64,000 nt of DNA from Actinoplanes siamensis. GTDB lineage: Bacteria > Actinomycetota > Actinomycetes > Mycobacteriales > Micromonosporaceae. The position numbers and the translations under genes are program-made. Numbering within the stretch: position 1 is the stretch's first letter; each line of letters starts with the position of its first letter. The DNA is taken from positions 186,001 to 250,000 of the forward strand of contig NZ_BOMW01000006.1 of NCBI RefSeq assembly GCF_016862395.1, in the 5' to 3' direction. Below the pieces are notes generated by a model. It ran no database searches. It had not been told where the DNA came from and saw only the letters and a program-made list of their open reading frames with translations. Positions 3,385-17,916 of the stretch are shown piece after piece.

Positions 3385-4599
3385 ATGTACGACCACCGCC
3401 AACTCGGCCGCGAGTTGGACCTCTTCGACTCCGACCCGCTGATCGGCGCCGGCCTGCCGTTCTGGCTCCCGGCCGGCGCCGCGGCCCGGCACGAGGTCGA
3501 GTCCTACCTGTACGACCTGGAACGCCGCAACGGCTACCAGCACGTCTACTCCCCCGTGCTGGGCAAGCGCCAGATGTACGAGTTGTCCGGGCACCTGGCG
3601 AACTTCTCCGGCGACATGTTCCCGCCGATGCCGGTCGGCGACGACGAGCTGATGCTGCGGCCCAGCCTGTGCCCGCATCACGCGTTGATCTTCAAGGCGC
3701 GGCAGCGGTCGTACCGTGACCTGCCGCTGCGCATCGCCGAGCTGGGCCAGATGTACCGCCAGGAGCGCTCCGGCGTGCTCGGCGGGCTGTCCCGGGTCCG
3801 CTCGATCTCGCTCAACGACTCGCACGTCCTGTGCCCTCCTGAGCAGGCGTCGTCAGAGGTCTCCGCGGTGTTGCGGATGATGCGCGAGGCGCACGCCGCG
3901 CTCGGCCTGCGGCCGGCGTCGTACCAGCTCTCGCTGCGCGGGCCGGGGAAGGAATACGGCGGGCGGGAGGAGACCTGGGCGGAGTCGGAGGCGTTGCTGC
4001 GGCGCGCGCTCGCCGACAATTCGCTGGTGTACGACGAGAAACCCGGTGAGGCCGCCTTCTACGGTCCGAAGATCGACGTCCAGGTCGTGGACGCGGCCGG
4101 CCGGGAGTGGACCATCGCCACCGTGCAGATCGATTTCCACCAGCCGGAGCGGTTCGATCTGTCCTACGTCGACTCCTCCGGCGCCCGCGCCCGGCCGGTG
4201 ATGGTGCACCGTAGCCTGGCCGGCTCGATGGAGCGGCTGTTCGGCCAGCTCATCGAGGAGCGCGGCGGCGCGTTCCCGGTCTGGTACGCGCCCGTGCAGC
4301 TCGCCGTGCTGCCGCTCGCCGGGGTGGACTCGTCGTTCGCCCGGGACGCCGTGGCCGCCGGCCTGCGCGTCGAGGAACACCACGACGGGTCGCTCGGCGC
4401 ACGGATCCGGGCGGCCGCGAAGGTCCCGTACGTCGCGGTGATCGGCGCCCGCGAGGCGGCGGACGGCCTGGTCTCGCTGCGCCTGCGCGGCGGCCGGCAG
4501 CTGGACCCGATGCCCGGGGCGGAGGCGATCTCGCTGATCCGCGCGGTCGCCGCCGCCCGCGTCACCGACGACCGGGACCTGGTGATCGCCGCCGGTTGA
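3385..4599 (+). CDS. Threonyl-tRNA synthetase-like protein lacking TGS and editing domains
   Basis: The 404-residue protein contains the class II catalytic core and a C-terminal anticodon-binding domain, but not the N-terminal TGS and Ser-tRNA(Thr) editing domains found in ordinary bacterial ThrRS of about 640 residues. The three zinc ligands of the threonine pocket are all present: Cys96 (LCPHH), His147 (NDSH) and His275 (VMVH). Motif 2 (MYRQERSG) and motif 3 (GSMERLFG) also look intact, so it should activate threonine. The layout resembles editing-less ThrRS such as yeast mitochondrial Mst1. A GAAGGAG ribosome site at 3371 supports the start. It is probably a second ThrRS used under special conditions or as a resistance copy; this is inference. 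Confidence 0.8.
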   Translation: MYDHRQLGRELDLFDSDPLIGAGLPFWLPAGAAARHEVESYLYDLERRNGYQHVYSPVLGKRQMYELSGHLANFSGDMFPPMPVGDDELMLRPSLCPHHALIFKARQRSYRDLPLRIAELGQMYRQERSGVLGGLSRVRSISLNDSHVLCPPEQASSEVSAVLRMMREAHAALGLRPASYQLSLRGPGKEYGGREETWAESEALLRRALADNSLVYDEKPGEAAFYGPKIDVQVVDAAGREWTIATVQIDFHQPERFDLSYVDSSGARARPVMVHRSLAGSMERLFGQLIEERGGAFPVWYAPVQLAVLPLAGVDSSFARDAVAAGLRVEEHHDGSLGARIRAAAKVPYVAVIGAREAADGLVSLRLRGGRQLDPMPGAEAISLIRAVAAARVTDDRDLVIAAG

Positions 4600-4612
4600 C
4601 CGGCCGGCGATC
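4584..4612. terminator. Hairpin between convergent ThrRS-like gene and cimA
   Basis: GATCGCCGCCGG pairs with CCGGCCGGCGATC, giving a 12-bp stem with one bulged base and a four-base loop. The ThrRS-like stop codon lies in the loop region, and the last base overlaps the cimA stop codon. It could serve both converging transcripts. Confidence 0.5.
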
Positions 4613-6183
4613 TACCGGGCCAGGCCGTAGGTCAGGGCGTCGACCAGGGCGGTCCAGCTGGCCTCGACGATGTTCTCGTGCACGCCGACAGTGGTCCACT
4701 CGCGCTGGCTGTCACCGGTCTCCAGCAGGACCCGGGTGATCGCGTTGGTGCCGTGCGCGCCCTCCAGGATGCGTACCTTGAAGTCGGTCAGCTCGAACGA
4801 CCTCAGTGCCGGATAGTGGTTGGAGAGCGCGCCGCGCAACGCCTCGTCGAGGGCGTTGACCGGGCCGTTGCCCTCGGCGGTCGCGATCATCCGCTCGCCC
4901 TTGACCCGCACCTTGACGGTCGCCTCGGAGATCACCTTGCCGTCCTCGCGGTGCTCGACCAGCACCCGGTACGACTCCAGAGTGAACGGCTCCGCCACCT
5001 CCCCGCCGGGCAGCTCGCCGCGCACCAGCAGCTCGAACGAGGCGTCGGCGGCCTCGAAGGACCAGCCGGTGGCCTCCAGGTCCTTCACCTTGCGGGTGAC
5101 CGCGGAGAGCGTGTCCGGACGGCCGGCCAGGTCGATGCCGAGCTCGCGGCTCTTGAGCTCGATGCTGGCCCGGCCGGCCATCTCGGTCACCAGGATCCGC
5201 ATGTCGTTGCCGACAACCGCCGGGTCGACGTGGTTGTACAGCAGCGGATCCACCTTGATCGCGCTCGCGTGCAGCCCGGCCTTGTGGGCGAAGGCGGCGG
5301 CCCCGACGTAGGCCTGGTGGGTGTCGGGGGCGATGTTGGCGATCTCGGCGAGCGCGGACGAGACCCGCGTCGCCTTCTCCAGGCATCCGTCCGGTAGGAC
5401 CTTCAGCCCGAGCTTGAGTTGCAGGTTGCTGACCGTGGCGAACAGGTCGGCGTTGCCGGGGCGCTCGCCGTAGCCGTTCGCGGTGCACTGGAAGTGCTTC
5501 ACCCCGGCCTCTACCGCGGCGACCGTGTTGGCCACCGCGCAGGCGGTGTCGTTCTGGCAGTGGATGCCGAGCCGGTCGGCGCTCACCCCGGTGCGCTCCA
5601 CCACCTCCTCGATCGCCTTGGTGATCATCGAGGGGAGCATGCCGCCGTTGGTGTCGCACATGACCACGCGCTCGGCGCCGGCGTCGATCGCGGTCCGTAC
5701 CACGCTGGCGGTGTACTCCGGGTCGAACCGGAAGCCGTCGAAGAAGTGCTCGCAGTCGACGAACGCGCGCCGGCCGTTGGCGACCAGATGCCGCACGGTG
5801 TCCCGGACCATCGCCAGGTTCTCCTCGGGCGTGGTGCGCAGCGCCCGCTCCACGTGCCGGACGTCCGACTTGGCCACCACGCAGACCACCGGCGTGCCGG
5901 CCTGCAGCAGCGCCTGGACCTGCCCGTCGGCGGCCACGTCGACGCCGGCCTTGCGGGTCGACCCGAAGGCGACCAGCACCGCGTGCTTGAGCTGCAACTC
6001 GGTCTTCGCGCGTTCGAAGAACTCGGTGTCCTTGGGCATGGCGCCGGGCCAGCCGCCCTCGATGAAGCCCACGCCGAACTCGTCCAGCAGCCGCGCTACG
6101 GCAAGCTTGTCGGCGACCGTGTAACTGATTCCCTCGCGCTGCCCACCGTCGCGCAGCGTCGTGTCGAAGACCTGGTACTCCAT
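4612..6183 (-). CDS. cimA: (R)-citramalate synthase
   Basis: The 523-residue protein belongs to the isopropylmalate/homocitrate/citramalate synthase family. The N-terminal TIM barrel opens with FDTTLRDGGQREG (residues 6-18), with metal and substrate residues in HCQND. The last 140 residues form a LeuA-type allosteric regulatory domain. The family condenses acetyl-CoA with pyruvate to citramalate, a threonine-independent entry to isoleucine (2-oxobutyrate). The CimA rather than LeuA assignment rests on overall resemblance to the actinobacterial CimA branch. It is supported independently by the Leu/Val/Ile leader peptide and attenuator just upstream. It converges on the ThrRS-like gene with a 12-base gap. 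Confidence 0.85.
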   Translation of the reverse strand: MEYQVFDTTLRDGGQREGISYTVADKLAVARLLDEFGVGFIEGGWPGAMPKDTEFFERAKTELQLKHAVLVAFGSTRKAGVDVAADGQVQALLQAGTPVVCVVAKSDVRHVERALRTTPEENLAMVRDTVRHLVANGRRAFVDCEHFFDGFRFDPEYTASVVRTAIDAGAERVVMCDTNGGMLPSMITKAIEEVVERTGVSADRLGIHCQNDTACAVANTVAAVEAGVKHFQCTANGYGERPGNADLFATVSNLQLKLGLKVLPDGCLEKATRVSSALAEIANIAPDTHQAYVGAAAFAHKAGLHASAIKVDPLLYNHVDPAVVGNDMRILVTEMAGRASIELKSRELGIDLAGRPDTLSAVTRKVKDLEATGWSFEAADASFELLVRGELPGGEVAEPFTLESYRVLVEHREDGKVISEATVKVRVKGERMIATAEGNGPVNALDEALRGALSNHYPALRSFELTDFKVRILEGAHGTNAITRVLLETGDSQREWTTVGVHENIVEASWTALVDALTYGLAR

Positions 6184-6216
6184 CGGGGACGTCCTTTCCG
6201 TCGGTCACCCACACCA

Positions 6217-6251
6217 CAACAAAAAGACCCCCCGCGGATGCGGGAGGTCTG
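6217..6251 (-). terminator. Rho-independent terminator of the cimA attenuator
   Basis: Read on the minus strand, AGACCTCCCGC pairs with GCGGGGGGTCT (one G-U pair, four-base loop) and is followed by a run of five T's. It lies between the leader peptide and the cimA ATG, 34 bases upstream of the start, where an attenuating terminator belongs. Confidence 0.85.
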
Positions 6252-6279
6252 CGCGGCGGCGTTGCTTCAGCCGGCGCGC
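6251..6279 (-). promoter_or_regulatory. Hairpin abutting the cimA leader stop codon
   Basis: On the minus strand GCGCGCCGGC and GCCGCCGCGC form a 10-bp stem with one mismatch and a nine-base loop. It starts at the last base of the leader stop codon and ends where the terminator stem begins. The ilvB leader has a hairpin in the same place, so it is probably the pause or antiterminator element. Confidence 0.6.
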
Positions 6280-6323
6280 TAAGTGCGAATAATCAGCACG
6301 AGGTGGGTCACGAGATGAAGCAT
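6279..6323 (-). CDS. cimA leader peptide (Leu/Val/Ile-rich)
   Basis: A 14-codon frame encodes MLHLVTHLVLIIRT, with four Leu, two Val and two consecutive Ile codons (ATT ATT). It includes codons rare in such a GC-rich genome (CTT, ATT). It is followed at once by a hairpin and then by a terminator with a T-tract before cimA. This is the classic arrangement for ribosome-mediated attenuation by branched-chain amino acids: stalling at Leu/Val/Ile codons would favour readthrough into cimA. A possible GGAG ribosome site lies about 12 bases upstream. Confidence 0.8.
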   Translation of the reverse strand: MLHLVTHLVLIIRT

Positions 6324-6381
6324 GCCACTATCCGGCTCCGGAAAGAGCGCTGTTCCACTTATCGGGACTAGTTTTGTCGGC

Positions 6382-7125
6382 GTGGTTGCCGAATCATACT
6401 CGCGAAATCTAAGGTTCTCCGCCACTTACAACTTCCGCGACGTCGGCGGCTACCCCGGTCTCGACGGCCGGACCGTCCGCTGGCGACGGCTCTTCCGGGC
6501 CGACTCGCTGCACCGGCTCGGCGACGACGACGCCGCCGCCTTCACCGCCCTGGGCATCCGCACCGTGATCGACCTGCGCCGCCCGTTCGAGGTGGAGAGG
6601 TTCGGCCGGGTGCACGAGCGGTACGGCGCCGACTACCGCAACCTGGTGCTCGAGCACATCGACTGGGAGGAGGTCGAGCACCCCGAGGGCACGGTGCACG
6701 AGCGCTGGCTGGCCGACCGCTATCTCAACTTCGCCGAGGACGGCCGGGCCGGCATCCTGGACTCGCTGCGCCTGATCGCCGACCCGGCCGCCGCGCCGGT
6801 GGTGGTGCACTGCATGGCCGGCAAGGACCGGACCGGCACGATCTGCGCCCTCACGCTCGCGCTGCTCGGGGTCTCCGACCACGACATCGCCACCGACTAC
6901 GCGCTGACCACTGCGGCGATGGCCCCGCTCACGGAGTACCTGCTGACCACGAGCCCGGAGACGATCGCCGGGAACGAGCACATGTTCGACTCGCCGCCCG
7001 CGGCGATGCGGCTGTTCCTGGACGATCTGCGGGCGCTGCACGGCTCGGTCGAGGACTACGTCCGCGAGATCGGCCTGACCGGCGCCGAGATCGCCGCGAT
7101 GCGCCGCCACCTGTTGGAGGGCTGA
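6382..7125 (+). CDS. Tyrosine-protein phosphatase (Y_phosphatase3 family)
   Basis: A protein of about 247 residues with the CX5R phosphatase loop HCMAGKDRTG (near residue 145 from this start) and the family's N-terminal NFRDVGGY motif. Such enzymes dephosphorylate tyrosine, and in some bacteria Ser/Thr residues or phosphoinositides. GTG 6382 is preferred because it begins shortly before the conserved NFRDVGG. An in-frame ATG at 6322 would overlap the cimA leader region. No ribosome site precedes the GTG, but a TANNNT box (TAGTTT, 6369-6374) lies about seven bases upstream, so the mRNA may be leaderless. It is divergent from cimA. Confidence 0.8.
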   Translation: MVAESYSRNLRFSATYNFRDVGGYPGLDGRTVRWRRLFRADSLHRLGDDDAAAFTALGIRTVIDLRRPFEVERFGRVHERYGADYRNLVLEHIDWEEVEHPEGTVHERWLADRYLNFAEDGRAGILDSLRLIADPAAAPVVVHCMAGKDRTGTICALTLALLGVSDHDIATDYALTTAAMAPLTEYLLTTSPETIAGNEHMFDSPPAAMRLFLDDLRALHGSVEDYVREIGLTGAEIAAMRRHLLEG

Positions 7126-7175
7126 CCCGGCGCGCGGCAAGCGGCGAGATGGCCACAACCCGTACCGACGAAAAG

Positions 7176-7211
7176 CGGGTCAGCGGAGAGCGAAACGCCT
7201 CCGCTGACCCG
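7176..7211 (-). terminator. Terminator of ilvE
   Basis: CGGGTCAGCGGAG pairs perfectly with CTCCGCTGACCCG (13 bp, ten-base loop) in the gap between the convergent phosphatase and ilvE genes. On the minus strand it is followed closely by CTTTTC, so it best serves ilvE; it may also stop plus-strand transcripts. Confidence 0.75.
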
Positions 7212-7222
7212 GGACGGTCTTC

Positions 7223-8320
<1,098 letters not shown>

Positions 8321-8386
8321 GACAAGAGGACCTGCTTTCTGGGAAACAAGCATGCGAGGGGTACCCGTGGTGCGCCCATGAATCTA

Positions 8387-8419
8387 CCCCGAACGGTCGT
8401 TAAAACAATGACCGTGGGG
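8387..8419. repeat. Imperfect inverted repeat between leuB and ilvE
   Basis: CCCCGAACGGTC and GACCGTGGGG form an imperfect stem around an AT-rich centre (GTTAAAACAAT). It could be a weak terminator behind leuB or a regulatory site before ilvE. The sequence alone does not decide. Confidence 0.35.
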
Positions 8420-8446
8420 CGTCGTGAAGCGCGGGGACGCGGAGCG

Positions 8447-9478
8447 TCAGACGGCGGCGGCGACCCGGTCGCCGACCTCGGCGGTACGCAGCGGCGCGCC
8501 CGCGGTGCGGGACGCGACCTCGGCCGCGACCGCCTCGGTTACTCGGCCGGCCTCGGCGTGCCGGCCCAGGTGCTCGAGCAGCAGCGCCGCGGAGAGGATG
8601 GCCGCGGCCGGGTCGGCGACACCCTGGCCGGCGATGTCCGGCGCGGAGCCGTGCACCGGCTCGAAGGTCGACGGGAACCGGCGCTCCGGGTTGACCGAGC
8701 CGCTGGCCGCCATGCCGATGCCACCGGTCACGGCGGCGGCGATGTCGGTGAGGATGTCGCCGAACAGGTTGTCGGTGACGATCACGTCGTACCGCTGCGG
8801 GTTGCTGACCATGAACATGCTGGCCGCGTCGATGTGCTGGTACTCCGTGGTGACGTCGGGAAACTCGGCGGCGACCGCGGCGAAGGCCCGCGACCACAGG
8901 TTGCCGGCGTGGGTGAGCACGTTCGTCTTGTGCACCAGGGTCAGGTGGCGGCGCTCGCGGCGCTGGGCGCGGTCGAACGCGTCCCGGATCACCCGCTCGA
9001 CGCCGTGCCTGGTGTTCAGGCTCTCCTCGGTGGCGATCTCGGCGGGGGTGTCCTTGTGCAGCACGCCGCCGGCGCCGACGTAGAGGCCCTCGGTGCCCTC
9101 GCGGACCACCACCATGTCGATCTCGCCGGGCTTCACGCCGGCCAGCGGGCTGGTGGTGCCCGGCCATAGCTTGGACGGGCGGAGGTTCACATACTGGTCG
9201 AAGTCGAAGCGGAGCCTGAGCAGCAGGCCGCGCTCCAGGACGCCCGGCGGGACGCTCGGGTCGCCGATCGCGCCGAGCAGGATCGCGTCGTGGCCGGCCA
9301 GCTCCTGCTGGACCGACTGCGGCAGGACCTCGCCGGTGCGGTGGTAGAGGCGGGCGCCCAGGTCGTACTCCTGGTACTCGACCCCGGGCAGGACCGCGTC
9401 GATCACCTTGCGCGCCTGCGCGGTCACCTCGGTTCCGATGCCGTCGCCGGCCACCACCGCGATCCGCGCCACGCTCAC
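8447..9478 (-). CDS. leuB: 3-isopropylmalate dehydrogenase
   Basis: A 343-residue NAD-dependent beta-decarboxylating dehydrogenase that oxidises 3-isopropylmalate to 2-oxoisocaproate in leucine synthesis. It opens with [14 protein letters not shown]. It carries the substrate-binding [17 protein letters not shown] region and the metal/substrate segment [12 protein letters not shown], followed by the NAD-site stretch [12 protein letters not shown]. The GTG at 9478 is preferred because GGGGAG lies five bases upstream; an in-frame extension to 9607 has no family support. leuA and leuCD are not in the window. Confidence 0.92.
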
Positions 9479-9579
9479 GTCGACTCCCCACACACGTCCG
9501 GACAAGCAACACACACGGTAACCCGCAGTCCCGCGACTCGGAACGCGAGTCCCACATGGTGAACTACCCCGGACACGAA

Positions 9580-9615
9580 CAGCCCCCGGATCGCGGCAAA
9601 CGATCACGGGGGCTG
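9580..9615. promoter_or_regulatory. Strong hairpin in the leuB 5' region
   Basis: CAGCCCCCG plus GATCG pair with CGATC plus CGGGGGCTG (14 bp, one bulged base, seven-base loop), about 100 bases upstream of the leuB GTG. No U-tract follows on either strand. It lies in the 341-base divergent gap between leuB and the small gene at 9820, so it could be an attenuator stem of leuB or protect a transcript end. The rest of that gap shows no gene beyond the doubtful six-codon frame described separately. Confidence 0.45.
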
Positions 9616-9738
9616 CTGCGACGAGTACGCGTGGCTCGGTCCCGCCGAAATCCCACCGCCCGGCCCACGGCAGACCGCGTCACCCGAAGACGCGCCCACC
9701 GAAGAACGTGCGGCTGGGACCAACGCTAGCGATGCGGA

Positions 9739-9759
9739 CTAAAGACGCGCAAGACGCAT
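9739..9759 (-). CDS. Doubtful short leader frame (MRLARL) upstream of leuB
   Basis: Six codons (MRLARL, both Leu codons CTT) end 123 bases before the strong hairpin in the leuB 5' region. Because cimA and ilvB have clear leader peptides, a Leu-containing leader before leuB is plausible. However, the frame is very short, lacks a ribosome site and has no hairpin at its stop. Treat as a candidate only. Confidence 0.2.
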   Translation of the reverse strand: MRLARL

Positions 9760-9819
9760 CCCCGCGTGTCGGCACACGGGTTCTCAACGTACGGGCGGCG
9801 GTAGTGGCACCATGCGCCG

Positions 9820-10182
9820 GTGAGTTTCGACCTAGTGGTGTGGGCGATGAACCCGACGGCGGCGCCGGACGAGGTGCGCGCGGCGAATGCCCGGTGCGCC
9901 GCGGGCGTACACCCGCAGCGCCCGGCCGACCCCCGCGTCGTCGCCTTCTACGACGCCTTGACCAGCACCTACCCGGATCGCGGGCCGCGGGCGACGGCAC
10001 CCGGCTCGCCGTGGGCGAGCACCCCGCTGCACGCCGCCGCGGACCACATCCAGATGCGCCTGGACGAGAACTGCCCGGACGTGGTCCTGGAGACCGTGGA
10101 GCGGCTGGCCGCCGAGCTGAACCTCGACCTGCTGGACCTCCAGGACGGCACGGTGTATCCGCCACCCGCCCGGGTGGCGTAG
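9820..10182 (+). CDS. Conserved-looking hypothetical protein, 120 aa
   Basis: A 120-residue soluble protein starting at GTG with MSFDLVVWAMNPTAAPDE. It has codon use like its neighbours, no signal peptide or membrane segment, and a C-terminal amphipathic helix ending LNLDLLDLQDG. I do not recognise the family. It converges on serA, and its stop codon lies in one arm of a hairpin that also contains the serA stop. No good ribosome site precedes the GTG, so the exact start is uncertain. Confidence 0.65.
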   Translation: MSFDLVVWAMNPTAAPDEVRAANARCAAGVHPQRPADPRVVAFYDALTSTYPDRGPRATAPGSPWASTPLHAAADHIQMRLDENCPDVVLETVERLAAELNLDLLDLQDGTVYPPPARVA

Positions 10183-10209
10183 GGCCTGTCCGCGGGACAG
10201 GCCCTACGC
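10177..10209. terminator. Bidirectional terminator containing both stop codons of convergent genes
   Basis: GCGTAGGGCCTGTCC and GGACAGGCCCTACGC form a perfect 15-bp stem with a three-base loop. The TAG of the upstream plus-strand gene (10180-10182) is in the left arm and the TAG of serA (10204-10206, minus strand) is in the right arm. One element therefore ends both genes. Confidence 0.75.
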
Positions 10210-11778
10210 AGCCCGCAAATCGACCGCGGCCGCGCTGGTCGAGCGCACCCCGGCGGCCACCGTGGCCAGCAGCTCCGGGTCGACGGACGAGTCGACGGTG
10301 AGGGTCATCAGCGCCTCGCCGCCGGCGGCCTTCCGGGCGACCTGCATCGCGGCGATGTTGACGCCGGCCCGGCCCAGCGTGGTGCCGATCCGGCCGACCA
10401 CACCGGGACGGTCCCGGTAGCGGAAGAACAGCAGCACGCCGTCGGCCGGCAGATCCAGCTCGAAGCCGTCCACCTCGACCAGCTTGGCGCCGGCCCCGGC
10501 CACCGCGACGGTGCGGCCGTCCGCGAGGGCGCCCCGGACCACGATCAGGCTCTCGTGCCCGCCGGCGTCCTCCGACGTCGCCAGCTCCACCTCGACCCCC
10601 CGGCCGGCGGCCAGCTGCGGCGCGTTCACATAGGTCACCCGCTCGGCCACCACGGAGGCGAACAGGCCCTTCGTGGTGGCCAGCCGGAGCACGCCGGCGT
10701 CGTGCGTGGCGACCTCGCCGCGGACCTCCACGGTGACCCGGGCGGCCACACCACCGGCGACCGCGGTGAAGACCCGGCCGAGCTTCTCGGCCAGGGGCAG
10801 GAGCTGGCGTACGTCCTCGTCCAGCGCCCCGCCGGCCCGGACGTTGACCGCGTCCGGCACGAACTCGCCGCGCAGCGCCAGCCGCACGCTCCGGGCCACC
10901 GCCAGGCCTGCCTTGTCCTGCGCCTCGACGGTGGACGCGCCCAGATGCGGGGTGACGGTCACGGTGTCGAAGGCGAACAGCGGCGACGACCTCAGCGGCT
11001 CGGTCTCGAACACGTCCAGCCCGGCCCCGGCCACCCGCCCGGCGGCTATCGCGTCGGCCAGCGCGCGCTCGTCGACCAGGCCACCCCGGGCCGCGTTCAC
11101 GATCCGTACCCCGGGCTTCGCCTCGGCCAGCTCCTTCTCGCCGATCATGCCGATCGTCTCCGGCGTGCGCGGCAGGTGCACCGAGATGAAGTCGCTCTCC
11201 CGGATCAGCTCGTCCAGGCCGACCAGGCGGACGCCGAGCTGCGCGGCGCGGGCCGGCTGGACGTACGGGTCGTAGGCGATCAGGTTCGTCCCGAAGGCCG
11301 CCATCCGCTGGGCCACCAGGACACCGATCCGACCCAGCCCGACGACGCCGACGGTCTTGCCGTACACCTCGACACCGGTGTACGCGGACCTCCTCCAGTG
11401 CCCCGCCTTGAGCGCCGCGCTGGCGCTCGCGGTGTGCCGGGCCGTGGTCAGCAGCAGCGCCACCGCCTGCTCCGCGGCCGAGATGATGTTGCTGGTCGGG
11501 GCGTTGACCACCAGCACGCCGCGGGCGGTCGCAGCCGGGATGTCGACGTTGTCCAGCCCCACCCCGGCCCGCGCCACGACGCGCAGGTGTGGTGCGGCCT
11601 CCAGGGCCTCGGCGTCGATCCGGGTGGCGCTCCGGACGATCACCGCCTCGGCCGGTTGCAGTGCGTCGAGCAGCGCGGGCCGGTCCGTGCCGTCCACCGA
11701 TCTGACCTCGTGGTCGGCGGTGAGCACCTCGATCGCGGCGGGCGCCAATTCCTCGGTTACCAGGACGACGGACGTCAT
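10204..11778 (-). CDS. serA: D-3-phosphoglycerate dehydrogenase
   Basis: A 524-residue enzyme of the first step of serine synthesis (3-phosphoglycerate to 3-phosphohydroxypyruvate, NAD-linked). The domain order is substrate-binding half, Rossmann fold with VVGLGRIG (about residues 146-153), catalytic His in the TPHLGAST segment, an intervening ASB-type domain, and a C-terminal ACT domain that binds serine. The length matches the long actinobacterial/type I form. The ATG at 11778 has GGAGGCTCC directly upstream, while the longer frame to 11853 runs over the gap. The ilvC terminator lies upstream, so serA probably has its own promoter. Confidence 0.93.
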   Translation of the reverse strand: MTSVVLVTEELAPAAIEVLTADHEVRSVDGTDRPALLDALQPAEAVIVRSATRIDAEALEAAPHLRVVARAGVGLDNVDIPAATARGVLVVNAPTSNIISAAEQAVALLLTTARHTASASAALKAGHWRRSAYTGVEVYGKTVGVVGLGRIGVLVAQRMAAFGTNLIAYDPYVQPARAAQLGVRLVGLDELIRESDFISVHLPRTPETIGMIGEKELAEAKPGVRIVNAARGGLVDERALADAIAAGRVAGAGLDVFETEPLRSSPLFAFDTVTVTPHLGASTVEAQDKAGLAVARSVRLALRGEFVPDAVNVRAGGALDEDVRQLLPLAEKLGRVFTAVAGGVAARVTVEVRGEVATHDAGVLRLATTKGLFASVVAERVTYVNAPQLAAGRGVEVELATSEDAGGHESLIVVRGALADGRTVAVAGAGAKLVEVDGFELDLPADGVLLFFRYRDRPGVVGRIGTTLGRAGVNIAAMQVARKAAGGEALMTLTVDSSVDPELLATVAAGVRSTSAAAVDLRAA

Positions 11779-11859
11779 GGAGCCTCCATCCGGGTTCGTC
11801 GGCATTGACGGACCCGAATGGTACGGACCCGCGGCCCCACCGGTCCGGTTCACTCACGG

Positions 11860-11889
11860 AAAAAGCCCGACCGGTCGACCGGTCGGGCT
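11860..11889 (-). terminator. Terminator of the ilvBNC operon
   Basis: A 26-base perfect palindrome (AGCCCGACCGGT mirrored) ends 18 bases after the ilvC stop and is followed by TTTTT on the minus strand. It is a canonical Rho-independent terminator separating ilvC from serA. Confidence 0.9.
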
Positions 11890-11906
11890 CCTTCGCGTCG
11901 CGGAGA

Positions 11907-12947
<1,041 letters not shown>

Positions 12948-12993
12948 TCAGTCCGCTCTAGGGCGGTGGGTGGGGCGGTCGGACGGGGGAAAA

Positions 12994-13512
12994 CTAAGCG
13001 GCACGCAGCGCGGGGCCGGTGGTGATGGAGCGGGAACCGCGGCCGATCGCCACGAGACCCGACTGGACCATCTCCTTGATGCCGTACGGCTCGAGGTCGC
13101 GCAGCAACGCATCCAGTTTGTCGGGATTACCGGTGGCCTCGATCGTCAGGGTGTCCGGAGCGACGTCGATCACCCGCGCCCGGAACAACTCGACGGTCTC
13201 GAGCACCTGGCCACGCTGCGCCCGGTCGGCGCGCACCTTGACCAGCAGGAGCTCACGCTGGACCGATTGCACCGGGTCCAGCTCCACGATCTTCAGGACG
13301 TTGACCAGCTTGTTGAGCTGCTTGGTCACCTGCTCCAGGGGTGAGGAGTCGGCGTTGACCACGATCGTGATGCGGCTGACGTCCGGGTTCTCCGTCTCGC
13401 CGACCGCCAGGGAGTCGATGTTGAAGCTGCGCCGGGAGAACAGCCCGCTGACCCGGGCCAGCACACCTGGCTTGTTCTCGACCAGCACGCTGAGCGTGTG
13501 CTTGTTCGTCAC
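12994..13512 (-). CDS. ilvN: Acetolactate synthase small (regulatory) subunit
   Basis: A 172-residue protein with an N-terminal ACT domain (HTLSVLVENKPGVLARVSGL) that binds valine for feedback control, and a C-terminal domain that activates the IlvB catalytic subunit. It starts at GTG with GGAGG upstream. It follows ilvB by 89 bases and precedes ilvC by 73 bases on the same strand, the usual order in actinomycetes. Confidence 0.96.
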   Translation of the reverse strand: MTNKHTLSVLVENKPGVLARVSGLFSRRSFNIDSLAVGETENPDVSRITIVVNADSSPLEQVTKQLNKLVNVLKIVELDPVQSVQRELLLVKVRADRAQRGQVLETVELFRARVIDVAPDTLTIEATGNPDKLDALLRDLEPYGIKEMVQSGLVAIGRGSRSITTGPALRAA

Positions 13513-13601
13513 TGTGCCTCCTCCGTCATGCCCGCCCGGCCCTCGCCTGCGAGGCCGTCCTCAGGTGCGGCTGGCCGCCGCTCGGTGCAGTTCGTCATGA
13601 C

Positions 13602-15431
13602 CTAGAGGTCGTCCTCGTCGAACGTGGGACGCACGTCCCGGGCGAACATGATCTCGTCGTTGCTGGTGCCGGCCGCGACCATCGGCCACACCATGGCGTC
13701 CTTGCCGACCGTGAAGTCGATGACCACCGGGGCGTCGTTGATCTCCATGGCCTGCTTGATGACCTTGTCGACGTCCGCCTTCGACTCGCAGCGCAGGCCG
13801 ACGCAGCCGAGCGCCTCGGCCAGCTTCACGAAGTCCGGGATCCGGTGCTTGTGGGTGCCCAGCTCGGTGTTGGAGTACCGGCCGTCGTAGAACAGGGTCT
13901 GCCACTGCCGGACCATGCCCAGGTTGCCGTTGTTGATCACGGCGATCTTCACCGGGATCCCCTCCAGCGCGCAGGTGGCCAGCTCCTGGTTCGTCATCTG
14001 GAAACAGCCGTCGCCGTCGATCGCCCAGACCGGGGTGTCCGGCCGGCCCACCTTGGCGCCCATCGCGGCCGGCACGGCGTACCCCATGGTCCCGGCGCCG
14101 CCGGAGTTGAGCCAGGAGCCCGGCTTCTCGTACCTGATGAACTGCGACGCCCACATCTGGTGCTGCCCGACGCCGGCGCAGTAGATCGCGTCCGGGCCGA
14201 CCAGCTCACCGATCCGCTCGATCACGTACTGCGGGGCCAGCGTGCCGTCGGTCGGCTCCTCGTAACCCAGCGGGTACCGCTCGCGCAGCTCGTTGAGCGT
14301 GTTCCACCAGGCGGTGTACTGCTCGACGCCGCCGGCCGTGGCGGAGACCGCGGCGATCAGCTCGTCGATCACGTGCCGGGCGTCGCCGACGATCGGGACG
14401 TCCGCGTGCCGGTTCTTGCCGATCTCGGCCGGGTCGATGTCGGCGTGCACCACCTTGGCGTCCGGCGCGAACGAGTCCAGCCGGCCGGTGACCCGGTCGT
14501 CGAACCGGGCGCCCAGGGTGATCAGCAGGTCCGACTTCTGCAGCGCGTAGACCGCCGGGACGGTGCCGTGCATACCGGGCATGCCCAGGTGCTGCGGGTG
14601 CGAGTCGGGGAAGGCGCCGAGGGCCATCAGCGTGGTGACCACCGGGATGCCGGTCAGCTCGGCCAGCTTGCGCAGCCCCTCGGTGGCGCCGGCCTTCAGC
14701 ACGCCACCGCCGACGTAGAGCACCGGGCGCCTGGCCGTCGCGATCAGCCGGGCCGCCTCGCGGATCTGCTTGCCGTGCGGGTGCAGGGTCGGCCGGTACC
14801 CGGGCAGGTCCAGGGTCGGCGGCCAGGCGAACGTGGTCTGCGACTGCTGGACGTCCTTCGGGATGTCGACCAGCACCGGGCCGGGCCGGCCGGTGGCCGC
14901 CAGGTGGAACGCCTCGGCGAGCACGCGGGGCAGCTCCTCCGGTGTCTGCACCAGGAAGTTGTGCTTGGTGATCGGCAGGGTGATGCCCTGGATGTCCGCC
15001 TCCTGGAAGGCGTCCGTGCCGATCGCCGAGCGGGAGACCTGGCCGGTGATCGCGACGATCGGCACCGAGTCCATGTACGCGTCGGCGATCGCGGTGACCA
15101 GGTTCGTCGCGCCCGGCCCACTGGTCGCCATGCACACCCCGACCTTGCCGGTGGCCTGGGCGTACCCGGTGGCGGCGTGCCCCGCGCCCTGCTCGTGCCG
15201 GACCAGGATGTGCCGGACCTTGGAGTCGAACAGCGGGTCGTACGCCGGCAGGATGGTCCCGCCCGGAATGCCGAACACGACCTCCACCCCGAGCGCCTCG
15301 AGCGACCGGACGAGCGCGCCGGCGCCCGTGGTGGCTACCGGAGCCGTGGCGACCGGAGCGGTGTTCACGGCCGCCGCGACGGTGGCCGGAGTGACTCGAT
15401 GGGCGAGGGTTTCAGGCGTGGGTCTCGTCAT
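13602..15431 (-). CDS. ilvB: Acetolactate synthase large (catalytic) subunit
   Basis: A 609-residue ThDP- and FAD-dependent enzyme that makes acetolactate and acetohydroxybutyrate. The catalytic glutamate is in [15 protein letters not shown], and the ThDP-Mg motif runs from [17 protein letters not shown] to [14 protein letters not shown] low-complexity Ala/Thr/Val N-terminal extension of about 35 residues precedes the conserved domain. It is preceded by its own leader peptide and attenuator, implying control by branched-chain amino acid supply, and heads the ilvBNC operon. Confidence 0.96.
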
Positions 15432-15475
15432 GGCAGTTCAGACCTTTTCGGTTTGGCGTCCAGCACTCGAGCAAC

Positions 15476-15507
15476 AAAAAAGGTCCTCGTGCAGAAGCAC
15501 GGGACCT
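15476..15507 (-). terminator. Rho-independent terminator of the ilvB attenuator
   Basis: On the minus strand AGGTCCCGTGC pairs with GCACGAGGACCT (11 bp, one bulge, four-base loop), followed by a run of T's. It sits 45 bases before the ilvB ATG and just downstream of a leader peptide, where an attenuating terminator is expected. Confidence 0.85.
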
Positions 15508-15508
15508 A

Positions 15509-15539
15509 GCGCACCCTCCTCGGCAGAGGAGCGGTGCGC
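15509..15539 (-). promoter_or_regulatory. Hairpin abutting the ilvB leader stop codon
   Basis: GCGCACC pairs with GGTGCGC, extended by CTCCTC with GAGGAG inside. The stem begins at the base after the leader stop codon and ends one base before the terminator stem. It occupies the same place as the hairpin in the cimA leader. Confidence 0.65.
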
Positions 15540-15569
15540 TCAGATAAGTACTCGGGACGCGAAGCACAT
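15540..15569 (-). CDS. ilvB leader peptide ending Val-Leu-Ile
   Basis: A nine-codon frame encodes MCFASRVLI and stops immediately after the three branched-chain codons (GTA CTT ATC). GGGGCAAGG lies about eight bases upstream and can serve as ribosome site. A hairpin and a T-tract terminator follow before ilvB. The signal is short but complete. Its ATG is only five bases downstream of the stop codon of the GGDEF-EAL gene on the same strand, so the promoter must lie inside that gene or the two are co-transcribed. Confidence 0.75.
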   Translation of the reverse strand: MCFASRVLI

Positions 15570-15573
15570 GCGG

Positions 15574-17916
15574 CTAACCTTGCCCCATCTCACGGCCTGA
15601 GTCAACTGATCCCACATTTTGATCACCGACCGAGGCGGAGAATTCCGGATCGGTCGGCAACAACGCTCTGAGCTGCCGCATTCCGGGGCCGAGGCGGATC
15701 ACCTGGCTGCGGGCCGGCGCGCCGGCCGGCGGCCCCGAGCGCGGCGCCGGCAGCGGCCGCGGGCCGACCGGGCGCAGCGATTCCAGCCGCGACTCGAAGT
15801 GCTCGGCCGGCACGCCCCAGCCGAACAGCGAGCCCTGGCCCAGCCGGCAGCCGGCCTCCTCGACCACCTCGCGCTGGGCCTGCGTGCCGATCCCCTCGGC
15901 GAGCACCTCCAGCCCGAGCCGGTGCCCCAGCCGGACCACCACGTCCACCAGCGGCGCCGCCGTGCCGGTCCGGGACTCCGGCTCGGCCACCAGCGCGTGG
16001 TCGATCTTGAGAATGTCCACCGGAAGAGTGCGCAGCTGGGTCAGCGAGGAGTACCCGGCGCCGAAGTCGTCGAGCGCGATCCGCACCCCCGTCTCGCGCA
16101 GCTCGGCCAGGCGCCGGACCAGCTCCTCCATGTCGGTGGCGACCGCGTGCTCGGTCACCTCCAGCACCAGCCGCTGCGGCGGGACGCCCAGCTCGGCGAG
16201 GATGTCGGCGACCTGGGCGGCGTAGTCGGCGTTGTGCAGCTCCTTGGGCGACAGGTTCACCGACATCCAGATGTCGTGGCCGGCCGCCAGCCAGTCGGCG
16301 AGCTGCCGGCAGGCCTGCTCCAGCACCCAGGCGCCGATCCGGTTGATCAGGCCGGACTCCTCGGCCACCGGGATGAACTCGTCCGGCCGGACCGGGCCCA
16401 GCTCCGGGTGCGTCCAGCGGAGCAGCGCCTCGGCGCCCACCGGCCGCATCGACGGCAGGGCCACCACCGGCTGGAACACCAGGCGCAGCTCGTCACGGTC
16501 GATCGCGTGGCGCAGCTCACCGGTCAGCGTGCCGCGGCGGCGCAGCAGCTCGTCGTAGCCCGCCTGGTACCGCTCTACCCGGTTCTTGCCGCGCTGCTTG
16601 GCGTAGCGCAGGGCCAGGTCGGCGTCGTGCAGCAGCTCGCCGGTGGAGGCGACGCCGACGCTGGCGGAGAGGAAGATCTGGCCGCCGTCCACGTCGTAGG
16701 GCTCGCCCAGCACCGCGAGCAGCCGGTGCGCGGCGAGCACCGCCTCGTCCGCGTCGCCGCGCATCAGCACCGCGAACTCGTCGCCGCCCAGCCGGGCCGC
16801 CACGTCGCCGTCCAGCAGGTTGCGCCGCAGCCGGGCGCCGACCTCGGCCAGCACCGCGTCGCCCACGTCGTGCCCGCGCAGGTCGTTGACGGTCTTGAAG
16901 CCGTCCATGTCGATGCCGATCAGCGCCTTCCGCCCGTCCTGGCCCTTGAGCGCCAGCTGCAGCCCACGGCGGTTGGCCAGGCCGGTGAGCGGGTCGGTGT
17001 GGGCCAGGTCACGGAAGTGCTTCTCCCGCTGGCGCAGCTGCACGGTGTAGCGCCGCACGTCGTCCAGCGCCAGGAACTGCCGGGCGACCAGGGCCAGACC
17101 CTCGACGCTGATCCCGAAATAGCCGTACGCGTCGAGCGTGCCGCCCTCGGCCAGGTGGTAGCCGAGCGCGGCGACCACCCCGAGCATCGGGACCACCGCG
17201 TACGCCCCGCCGCGCTCCAGCACGTCGCCGGTCACCCGCACCGGCCGGTCCGCGGCCCGCACCGCCCAGGCCACCAGGATCAGCCCCGCGCTGAGCAGCA
17301 GCACCGAGGTCAGCACCAGCTCGTCGCCCCGGCGGCAGATGCCGCCGGACACCCCGGCCGAGGCCACCGCGGACAGGCTCACCCCGACGCCGACCCGCAC
17401 CGTGTGCCGCCGCGGCCGGTGCGCGTGCAACGCCAGCACCCCGGTCAGCCCCAGCGCCACCACGGCCAGCACGGCCGGCAGGATCACCGCGGCGCACTGG
17501 TACGGCGTGGCGCCGCCGAGCAGCCGGGTCGGCCGGGCCACCAGCACCCAGCCCACGAACCAGATCGCCGCCGCGATGACCAGGCCGTCCAGCACGTGGC
17601 GCAGCGCCGCCGCCGGTCCGCGGGCCGCGCCGGGCAACGCCACGGTGCCGGCCAGCAGCGCCAGCGTGCCGGTCGCCATGCCGACCGCCATCAGCGTGGC
17701 CAGCGTGGTGGCGCCCGGCGCCAGGCCGCCGCCGCGGTGCTCGGTGAGCACCGCGGTGGCCAGACCGGCCAGGGCGGCCCCGACGATCAACGCGCCGCCC
17801 GCGGCGAGCAGCAGATGCGCGCGGCGCGCGGCCCCGGTGTGGCGGCGGCCCGACTGCCCGAGCAGGGCGACGGCCGGGACGGCGGCGAGCAGGCCAGCGA
17901 GGCCGGCAAGCTCCAT
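15574..17916 (-). CDS. Membrane GGDEF-EAL protein (c-di-GMP turnover)
   Basis: About 780 residues. The first 280 contain seven to nine membrane helices, followed by a GGDEF domain with intact GGDEF (about residues 377-381) and an EAL domain (about 494-750). EAL catalytic residues are visible: [30 protein letters not shown] and AEGIGT. It could therefore both make and break c-di-GMP, and which activity dominates cannot be told. The start at 17916 (MELAGLAG) is chosen as the beginning of the hydrophobic segment; an in-frame ATG at 17958 would add 14 residues. It diverges from ilvD and ends just before the ilvB leader. Confidence 0.85.

Follow-up and report, generated by a model that had tools for sequence, protein, structure and literature searches.

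Which amino acid does the region upstream of the citramalate synthase gene cimA of Actinoplanes siamensis respond to, and which RNA structures could convert that signal into transcription of the gene? An earlier note on this DNA had proposed a complete attenuator with a Leu/Val/Ile leader peptide. The proposal was followed up in the window, which is the whole stretch of 64,000 nucleotides that was analysed, and in related genomes. The cimA product scores 603.6 bits against TIGR00977, for which the curated cut-off is 450, and hence passes as citramalate synthase. The elements of the locus follow each other on the minus strand in the order -10-like element, leader ORF, hairpin P2, terminator, a 37-nt stretch and cimA, the start codon of which is 37 nt past the T-tract of the leader terminator:

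6319 to 6327, minus strand: extended -10-like element, TGG-CATGCT, with a conserved hexamer; includes the ATG at 6323-6321
6279 to 6311, minus strand: leader ORF with GTG start, MTHLVLIIRT*, read from the sequence; frame and start conserved
6288 to 6293, minus strand: Ile-Ile control codons ATT ATT; consecutive Ile conserved
6251 to 6279, minus strand: hairpin P2, the proposed antitermination hairpin, with its 5' arm starting from the G of the TAG stop codon
6221 to 6250, minus strand: GC-rich intrinsic terminator with an 11-bp stem (6250-6225), loop (6239-6236) and T-tract (6225-6221)
4612 to 6183, minus strand: cimA, citramalate synthase of 523 aa (TIGR00977; HMGL-like and LeuA_dimer domains)

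The short ORF rich in branched-chain codons, the hairpin touching its stop codon and the terminator stem with T-tract, all described in the earlier note, were found upstream of cimA. The leader codons read GTG ACC CAC CTC GTG CTG ATT ATT CGC ACT TAG (6311-6279, minus strand). P2 (6279-6251) starts within TAG, has a folding energy of -15.2 kcal/mol on its own and ends at 6251, so that no spacer separates it from the terminator, which begins at 6250. A terminator scan of 4000-17000 returned 8 sites, as compared to 2.4 +/- 1.6 in shuffled sequences. Among these was the 11-pair stem 6250-6225 with T residues up to 6221, i.e. a predicted intrinsic terminator between the leader ORF and the gene, as in an attenuator. 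These features and their conservation, taken together with stalling and termination steps that we infer from them, make it quite likely that the cimA leader is a ribosome-mediated, isoleucine-specific transcription attenuator.

Conservation of the arrangement was assessed at loci fetched with the cimA protein. Of 139 such loci, 135 pass tblastn at 1e-80; those dropped (L002-L005) are weak matches in the own genome. An Ile leader followed by a terminator was parsed in 133 of the 135 cimA loci, and in the remaining two (L031, L036) both features were recognized by eye. With a loose pattern, terminator and Ile codons were seen in 135/135. The loci are mostly from Micromonosporaceae and also from Saccharothrix, Prauserella, Kutzneria, Lentzea, Actinokineospora and Modestobacter; they include repeated contigs, the 133 parsed ones representing 118 distinct leaders. 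With 49 more from 80 class-sample regions (43 without and 37 with a listed match to the model R1, below), 167 distinct leaders were available. They were chosen for Ile codons and a T-tract, and counts of Ile, gap, codon and promoter motif over this set describe element-bearing leaders. The gap between P2 and terminator is 0 nt in 148 of the 167, 1 nt in 17 and 2 nt in 2; one leader of the set, L269, has its terminator clipped by the parser, leaving a last helix of -0.4 kcal/mol. The 5' base of P2 is located 3-11 nt past the last Ile codon, at 8 nt in 107/167 leaders, and P2 loops differ in sequence and length. The frame and both stems, the conservation of which in relatives had been named in the earlier note as a check, are kept within and beyond Micromonosporaceae, and the presence of a leader-peptide attenuator before cimA is supported. 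Since double changes were seen in just 3 of the 15 consensus pairs of alignment A1, covariation is thin and the stems rely less on it than on conservation and complementarity. Pairs 1-5 of P2 vary little, and some of the apparent variation comes from a shift in register. The 19 stems counted as contiguous were picked because they fold contiguously and hence do not constitute an independent test.

A model, R1, was built from 42 cimA leaders and used to determine how far the element extends. In the own genome it matched the cimA leader at E 9.7e-22, the next best match being at E 9.2. Matches at E<=0.01 were obtained in 64/396 genomes of the phylum. When 31 R1 loci (L143-L173, with L143 and L144 coming from the own-genome search) were typed, 16 were at cimA, 12 at ilvB, 1 at a leuA-like gene and 2 at neither. 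The typing used five queries, one of them the frame 8400-9557, which has no family match; leuB is situated within 8447-9607 of the window. In a class sample of 296 genomes, cimA was present in 236 and an R1 match in 186. When 150 listed cimA genes were crossed with 150 listed R1 matches, 107/150 cimA genes had, among the matches listed, an R1 match in the same orientation at 33-223 nt upstream. An R1 search with filters off upstream of the remaining 43 (18 kb) added 16 more on the cimA strand, at E 1.2e-9 to 1.2e-5. Thus, the element is found just upstream of 123/150 cimA genes among the matches listed. An R1 match is absent for 27 of these 150 listed genes, and 22 of the 27 belong to one family, f91. 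A terminator-like site was detected in 1/22 f91 regions, compared with 36/37 regions having a listed R1 match. The f91 regions, e.g. L220, L223, L225 and L228, show no R1 in the 400 nt upstream of cimA and offer a natural absence for comparison. Before several cimA genes of more distant classes (e.g. L196, L198, L201, L202) an Ile-rich uORF and a hairpin over its stop codon are seen with no T-tract (by eye, not folded); leaders of this type could possibly act through Rho- or translation-based control.

The identity of the control codons was addressed with 88 upstream regions that had been fetched by protein alone and thinned to <85% similarity, a set unselected for Ile. A uORF containing two or more Ile codons in a row, i.e. 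the run of codons for the pathway product in a short ORF that marks a leader-peptide attenuator, was present in 85/88, whereas shuffled regions gave a mean of 0.95 and a maximum of 3 (20 rounds). The corresponding figures are 21/29 in the best 29 phylum-sample regions (shuffles 0.95, maximum 4), 33/37 in class-sample regions with a listed R1 match (shuffles 1.15, maximum 3) and 13/43 in those without (shuffles 1.1, maximum 4), 2 of the 13 (L214, L217) appearing accidental. Among the parsed leaders, which are Ile-selected, 157/167 have at least two consecutive Ile codons and 10/167 a single one. Leu at position -2 relative to the last Ile occurs in 107/167 leaders and Val at -3 in 83/167; Leu and Val were therefore rejected as conserved control codons. 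The part of the Leu/Val/Ile assignment concerning Ile thus stands on the 85/88 thinned regions, and the Leu and Val parts do not, as these neighbours vary. As judged from these comparisons, the signal read by the cimA leader is very probably Ile alone. The leader had been put forward in the earlier note as independent evidence that cimA serves isoleucine synthesis. This view is backed by the control codons, more firmly than the earlier note had assumed, as only those for Ile are conserved.

Codon usage at the control site is distinct. Among the Ile codons of the 118 leaders retrieved through protein similarity, 220 are ATT and 21 ATC; the corresponding counts over nine identified window genes are 1 ATT, 152 ATC and 1 ATA. 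ATT is thus rare in the window genes yet prevails at the leader control site, where ATC also occurs. The preference may reflect slow decoding or a need to keep the stretch unstructured. Four class-sample leaders (L252, L253, L254, L261) carry one Ile followed by Thr (CITT, LITH, CITT and CITP, respectively) and might respond as well to threonine, the start of the other route.

The start of the leader was located by similar comparisons. A [CT]ANNNT hexamer is found within -16 to -5 of the leader start in 155/167 leaders, as against 4/167 in a control interval, and TGG is usually present 5' of it. The sole [CTG]ANNNT match of the interval -16 to -10 sits at -13 in 109/167, and an SD-like motif was seen in just 2/167 leaders. 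A scan of 4000-17000 for sigma-70-type promoters, which is stricter than the hexamer count, found none, including at the leader. The peptide of the earlier note, 14 aa long and beginning at ATG 6323, was rejected. Of 54 Actinoplanes-type leaders (peptides starting VTH, VTR or VAH), 33 carry an in-frame ATG within the 16 nt preceding the GTG, 7 carry one in another frame and 14 have none; it is the start at GTG 6311 that is conserved. Because the hexamer is conserved while the frame of the ATG varies, ATG 6323, which overlaps the -10-like element, was assigned to that element. Judging from the promoter-like motif, the transcript probably begins at or beside the leader GTG and the mRNA is leaderless. 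Leaderless leader peptides are known in S. lividans, according to the excerpted text of PMC8079986. According to the earlier note, a start site past the terminator would refute the proposal. The motif indicates otherwise and places the putative transcription start upstream of the terminator, at or near the leader start codon.

In enterobacterial ilv, leu and thr attenuators, the control codons specify the pathway product and the position of the ribosome decides the fate of the terminator. At cimA, transcription would start at the GTG or one base before it, and the ten-codon leader would be translated from a leaderless mRNA. When charged tRNA-Ile is ample, the ribosome would reach TAG and cover the 5' arm of P2. 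P2 would thus be prevented, the terminator would fold and transcription would stop after about 90 nt. When charged tRNA-Ile is scarce, the ribosome would stall on ATT ATT, just far enough upstream to free P2, which would fold before the terminator is synthesised. Abutting the terminator without a spacer, P2 could then impede the terminator stem as it closes at the RNA exit channel of the polymerase, and cimA would be transcribed. For this last step alone, the blocking of the terminator by P2, we consider the chances close to even, leaning slightly towards doubt.

Leaders were folded with the ribosome placed on successive codons, 12 nt being taken as covered from the A-site codon onward. In the window leader, P2 is predicted to be whole or one pair short with the first or second Ile codon in the A site, each ribosome step past Ile melts it further, and at the stop codon P2 is gone and the terminator intact. 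The sign fits formation of P2 on starvation, and therefore P2 should antiterminate. At equilibrium, however, no switch emerged from these foldings. The median minimum pair probability of the terminator is 0.87 with P2 free and 0.86 with P2 blocked; since the terminator forms equally in both states, folding fails to explain the switch. A literature search for precedent of an upstream hairpin hindering a terminator gave none among the papers listed, including the excerpts of PMC4824070 and PMC8355165. In E. coli, ribosomes near a stop codon can repress a terminator, which is the opposite sign (PMC4824070, as excerpted).

Other arrangements were also considered. The enterobacterial peptides are preceded by an SD and their antiterminator is a segment of its own, in both of which they differ from the cimA leader, and a four-segment design of this kind is the norm in the enterobacterial ilv and leu leaders. 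For the cimA leaders it would require an upstream segment complementary to one of the terminator arms. With the 5' arm, upstream sequence pairs at a median energy of -5.3 kcal/mol, more weakly than with shuffled arms (-7.2), and the duplex of the terminator arms themselves (-21.4 kcal/mol) is approached to within 5 kcal/mol in 1/167 leaders, so that no classical antiterminator was found. Pairing with the 3' arm is stronger, at a median of -15.6 kcal/mol, and a competitor lies within 5 kcal/mol of the own duplex in 67/167; this median is however near the shuffled one (-14.5), and the positions are scattered, with no more than 32/167 leaders agreeing on any one end point. No conserved antiterminator pairing with either arm was thus found by folding and duplex energies over the 167 leaders, the classical four-segment attenuator appears very improbable here, and the word "complete" of the earlier note does not hold in the classical sense. 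The overlapping-bases model of Corynebacterium (PMC11857589, as excerpted) is the nearest published idea. As proposed for C. glutamicum ilvBNC, P2 would extend by a few pairs into the 5' arm of the terminator and the two hairpins would compete for the boundary bases. Adjacent, overlapping hairpin bases have mutational support in C. glutamicum (excerpt of PMC11857589), and in intermediates without the 3' arm of the terminator, 1-2 of its first four bases are paired outside P2 in 85/167 leaders. On the other hand, the 5' arm pairs with nothing upstream in 79/167, and the window leader shows no extension, whether the ribosome is absent or has either of the two Ile codons in its A site. Such a boundary switch is therefore rather unlikely in our estimate.

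Two further explanations were weighed. The terminator could be constitutive, with the leader setting a basal level, or the leader could act on translation or via Rho. Codon mutations in the ilvB leader of S. coelicolor were without effect (as told in the excerpted PMC1262725), and some cimA genes of distant classes have an Ile-rich uORF and hairpin with no T-tract (by eye), both in line with this possibility. Conservation of Ile in either synonymous codon, of the P2 distance and of the abutment is unexpected for a passive terminator and renders this explanation improbable. A structured and conserved leader would also agree with an RNA that binds a ligand or tRNA (riboswitch, T-box) or with an element bound by protein. 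An Rfam search of 4000-10000 gave a single match, of E 0.98, outside the element, and no family over the element at E<=1; known Rfam families including the T-box were rejected, as no covariance model matched over the leader. Conservation tracks the reading frame and the loops of P2 vary, and to such an element we give hardly any credence.

Leader-peptide attenuation of actinobacterial branched-chain genes is already known. A study by Wolf et al. 2017 is said to concern Actinoplanes and could mention a cimA leader. It is cited on actinobacterial leader peptides in the excerpted text of PMC8079986. In the excerpts of the two actinobacterial leader lists (PMC1262725; PMC8079986 Table 4) cimA is in neither. 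The main texts of PMC11109978 and PMC11550727 do not mention cimA or citramalate, and no cimA leader or attenuator was found in titles and abstracts of open-licence PubMed Central, a collection that leaves subscription papers mostly outside. What is new here is apparently the Ile-only code combined with the apparently antiterminator-free abutting design on cimA.

The nearest relatives can be compared as far as the excerpts of the cited papers describe them. Corynebacterium ilvBNC (ilvB-II motif) likewise has a branched-chain leader peptide, an intrinsic terminator and adjacent hairpin bases (PMC11857589, PMC10272879), and its leader start codon is about one nt from the transcript start, as proposed here. 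The adjacency of antiterminator and terminator bases that characterizes its three-hairpin leaders was found at cimA in 167/167 leaders, with a gap of 0-2 nt. Unlike the cimA leader, ilvBNC has ilvB as its target, and an antiterminator overlapping the terminator has been described and mutated. In the cimA leaders the codons are Ile-only, and overlap is seen in about half (85/167 intermediates) and is absent in the window. On the supporting side, a reporter carrying the C. ulcerans ilvB-II motif gave high expression in minimal medium and low expression in rich medium when placed in B. subtilis (PMC10272879). The mycobacterial ilvB1 leader resembles that of cimA in its branched-chain uORF, its short terminated leader RNA and the proposal that a ribosome at the stop codon blocks an antiterminator; it differs in being on another gene, in its LVVI codons, in being backed by experiment and in that the proposed antiterminator is mutually exclusive (PMC13236596). 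Replacement of the LVVI codons by Ala abolished induction (PMC13236596), a result that by analogy favours an attenuator at cimA. In S. coelicolor, codon changes in the ilvB leader did not affect regulation, and those in the leuA leader had an effect inconsistent with classical attenuation (both as told in PMC1262725). These results count against the attenuator reading of cimA. The Streptomyces ilvB, leuA and leuS leaders also encode branched-chain peptides before branched-chain genes, several being leaderless, and ilvB has a terminator with no clear antiterminator, as in the cimA leader (PMC1262725, PMC8079986). The LEU element of actinobacterial leuA, which comprises a run of Leu codons and a pseudoknot, has no obvious terminator in the excerpted descriptions and pairs with the leuA SD; the cimA leader has a terminator and no Leu run, and identity with the LEU element was rejected. 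The old difficulty of actinobacterial ilv leaders having a terminator without a clear antiterminator could become a testable rule, that of zero spacing between P2 and terminator.

A leader of related architecture precedes ilvB in the same window:

15540 to 15569, minus strand: ilvB sister leader ORF, MCFASRVLI*
15481 to 15540, minus strand: ilvB sister tandem hairpins, P2 (15540-15508) and terminator (15507-15481), with no spacer

This leader was missed by R1, and its terminator, with a bulged stem, was not among the sites of the 4000-17000 scan. The leuA of the own genome (L003) has a leader with four consecutive Leu codons, and the leuA-like gene of an R1 locus, 29% identical to cimA, is preceded by MSQNLLLT*. 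Within one genome the codons fit the gene: Ile-Ile for cimA, V-L-I for ilvB and four Leu for leuA. Related leader architectures thus carry gene-fitted codons (Ile at cimA, Val/Leu/Ile at ilvB, Leu at leuA). A class-wide family of actinobacterial attenuators on cimA, ilvB and leuA-like genes, in which no antiterminator exists, the ribosome switches a hairpin connected to the terminator by its abutment alone, steric exclusion at the exit channel rather than alternative base pairing decides termination and the cimA branch is Ile-only, is suggested tentatively and with more doubt than confidence.

A threonine ammonia-lyase above the TIGR01127 cut-off is encoded elsewhere in the own genome (G000:C36:114246-115388); the C-terminal regulatory domain PF00585 had no match in that genome. 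Because this enzyme is also present, cimA cannot be claimed as the only isoleucine entry. If the ribosome-mediated attenuator operates as proposed, it would name isoleucine as the controlling end product of the threonine-independent isoleucine entry in actinomycetes, from sequence alone. The Ile leader could also serve as a functional label for cimA, a gene readily mistaken for leuA, and it offers engineers of actinomycete producers a compact candidate for a switch responsive to Ile.

The surrounding genes include ilvB (13602-15431), followed by ilvN, ilvC and serA. Convergent with cimA is a plus-strand gene (3385-4599) for a threonyl-tRNA synthetase-like protein of 404 aa, which covers only positions 172-563 of TIGR00418, the N-terminal part being absent, and which is perhaps a paralogue. 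A tyrosine phosphatase gene (PF13350; 6409-7125, plus strand), divergent from the cimA leader, lies between cimA and ilvE and is the odd member of this cluster of branched-chain and serine genes.
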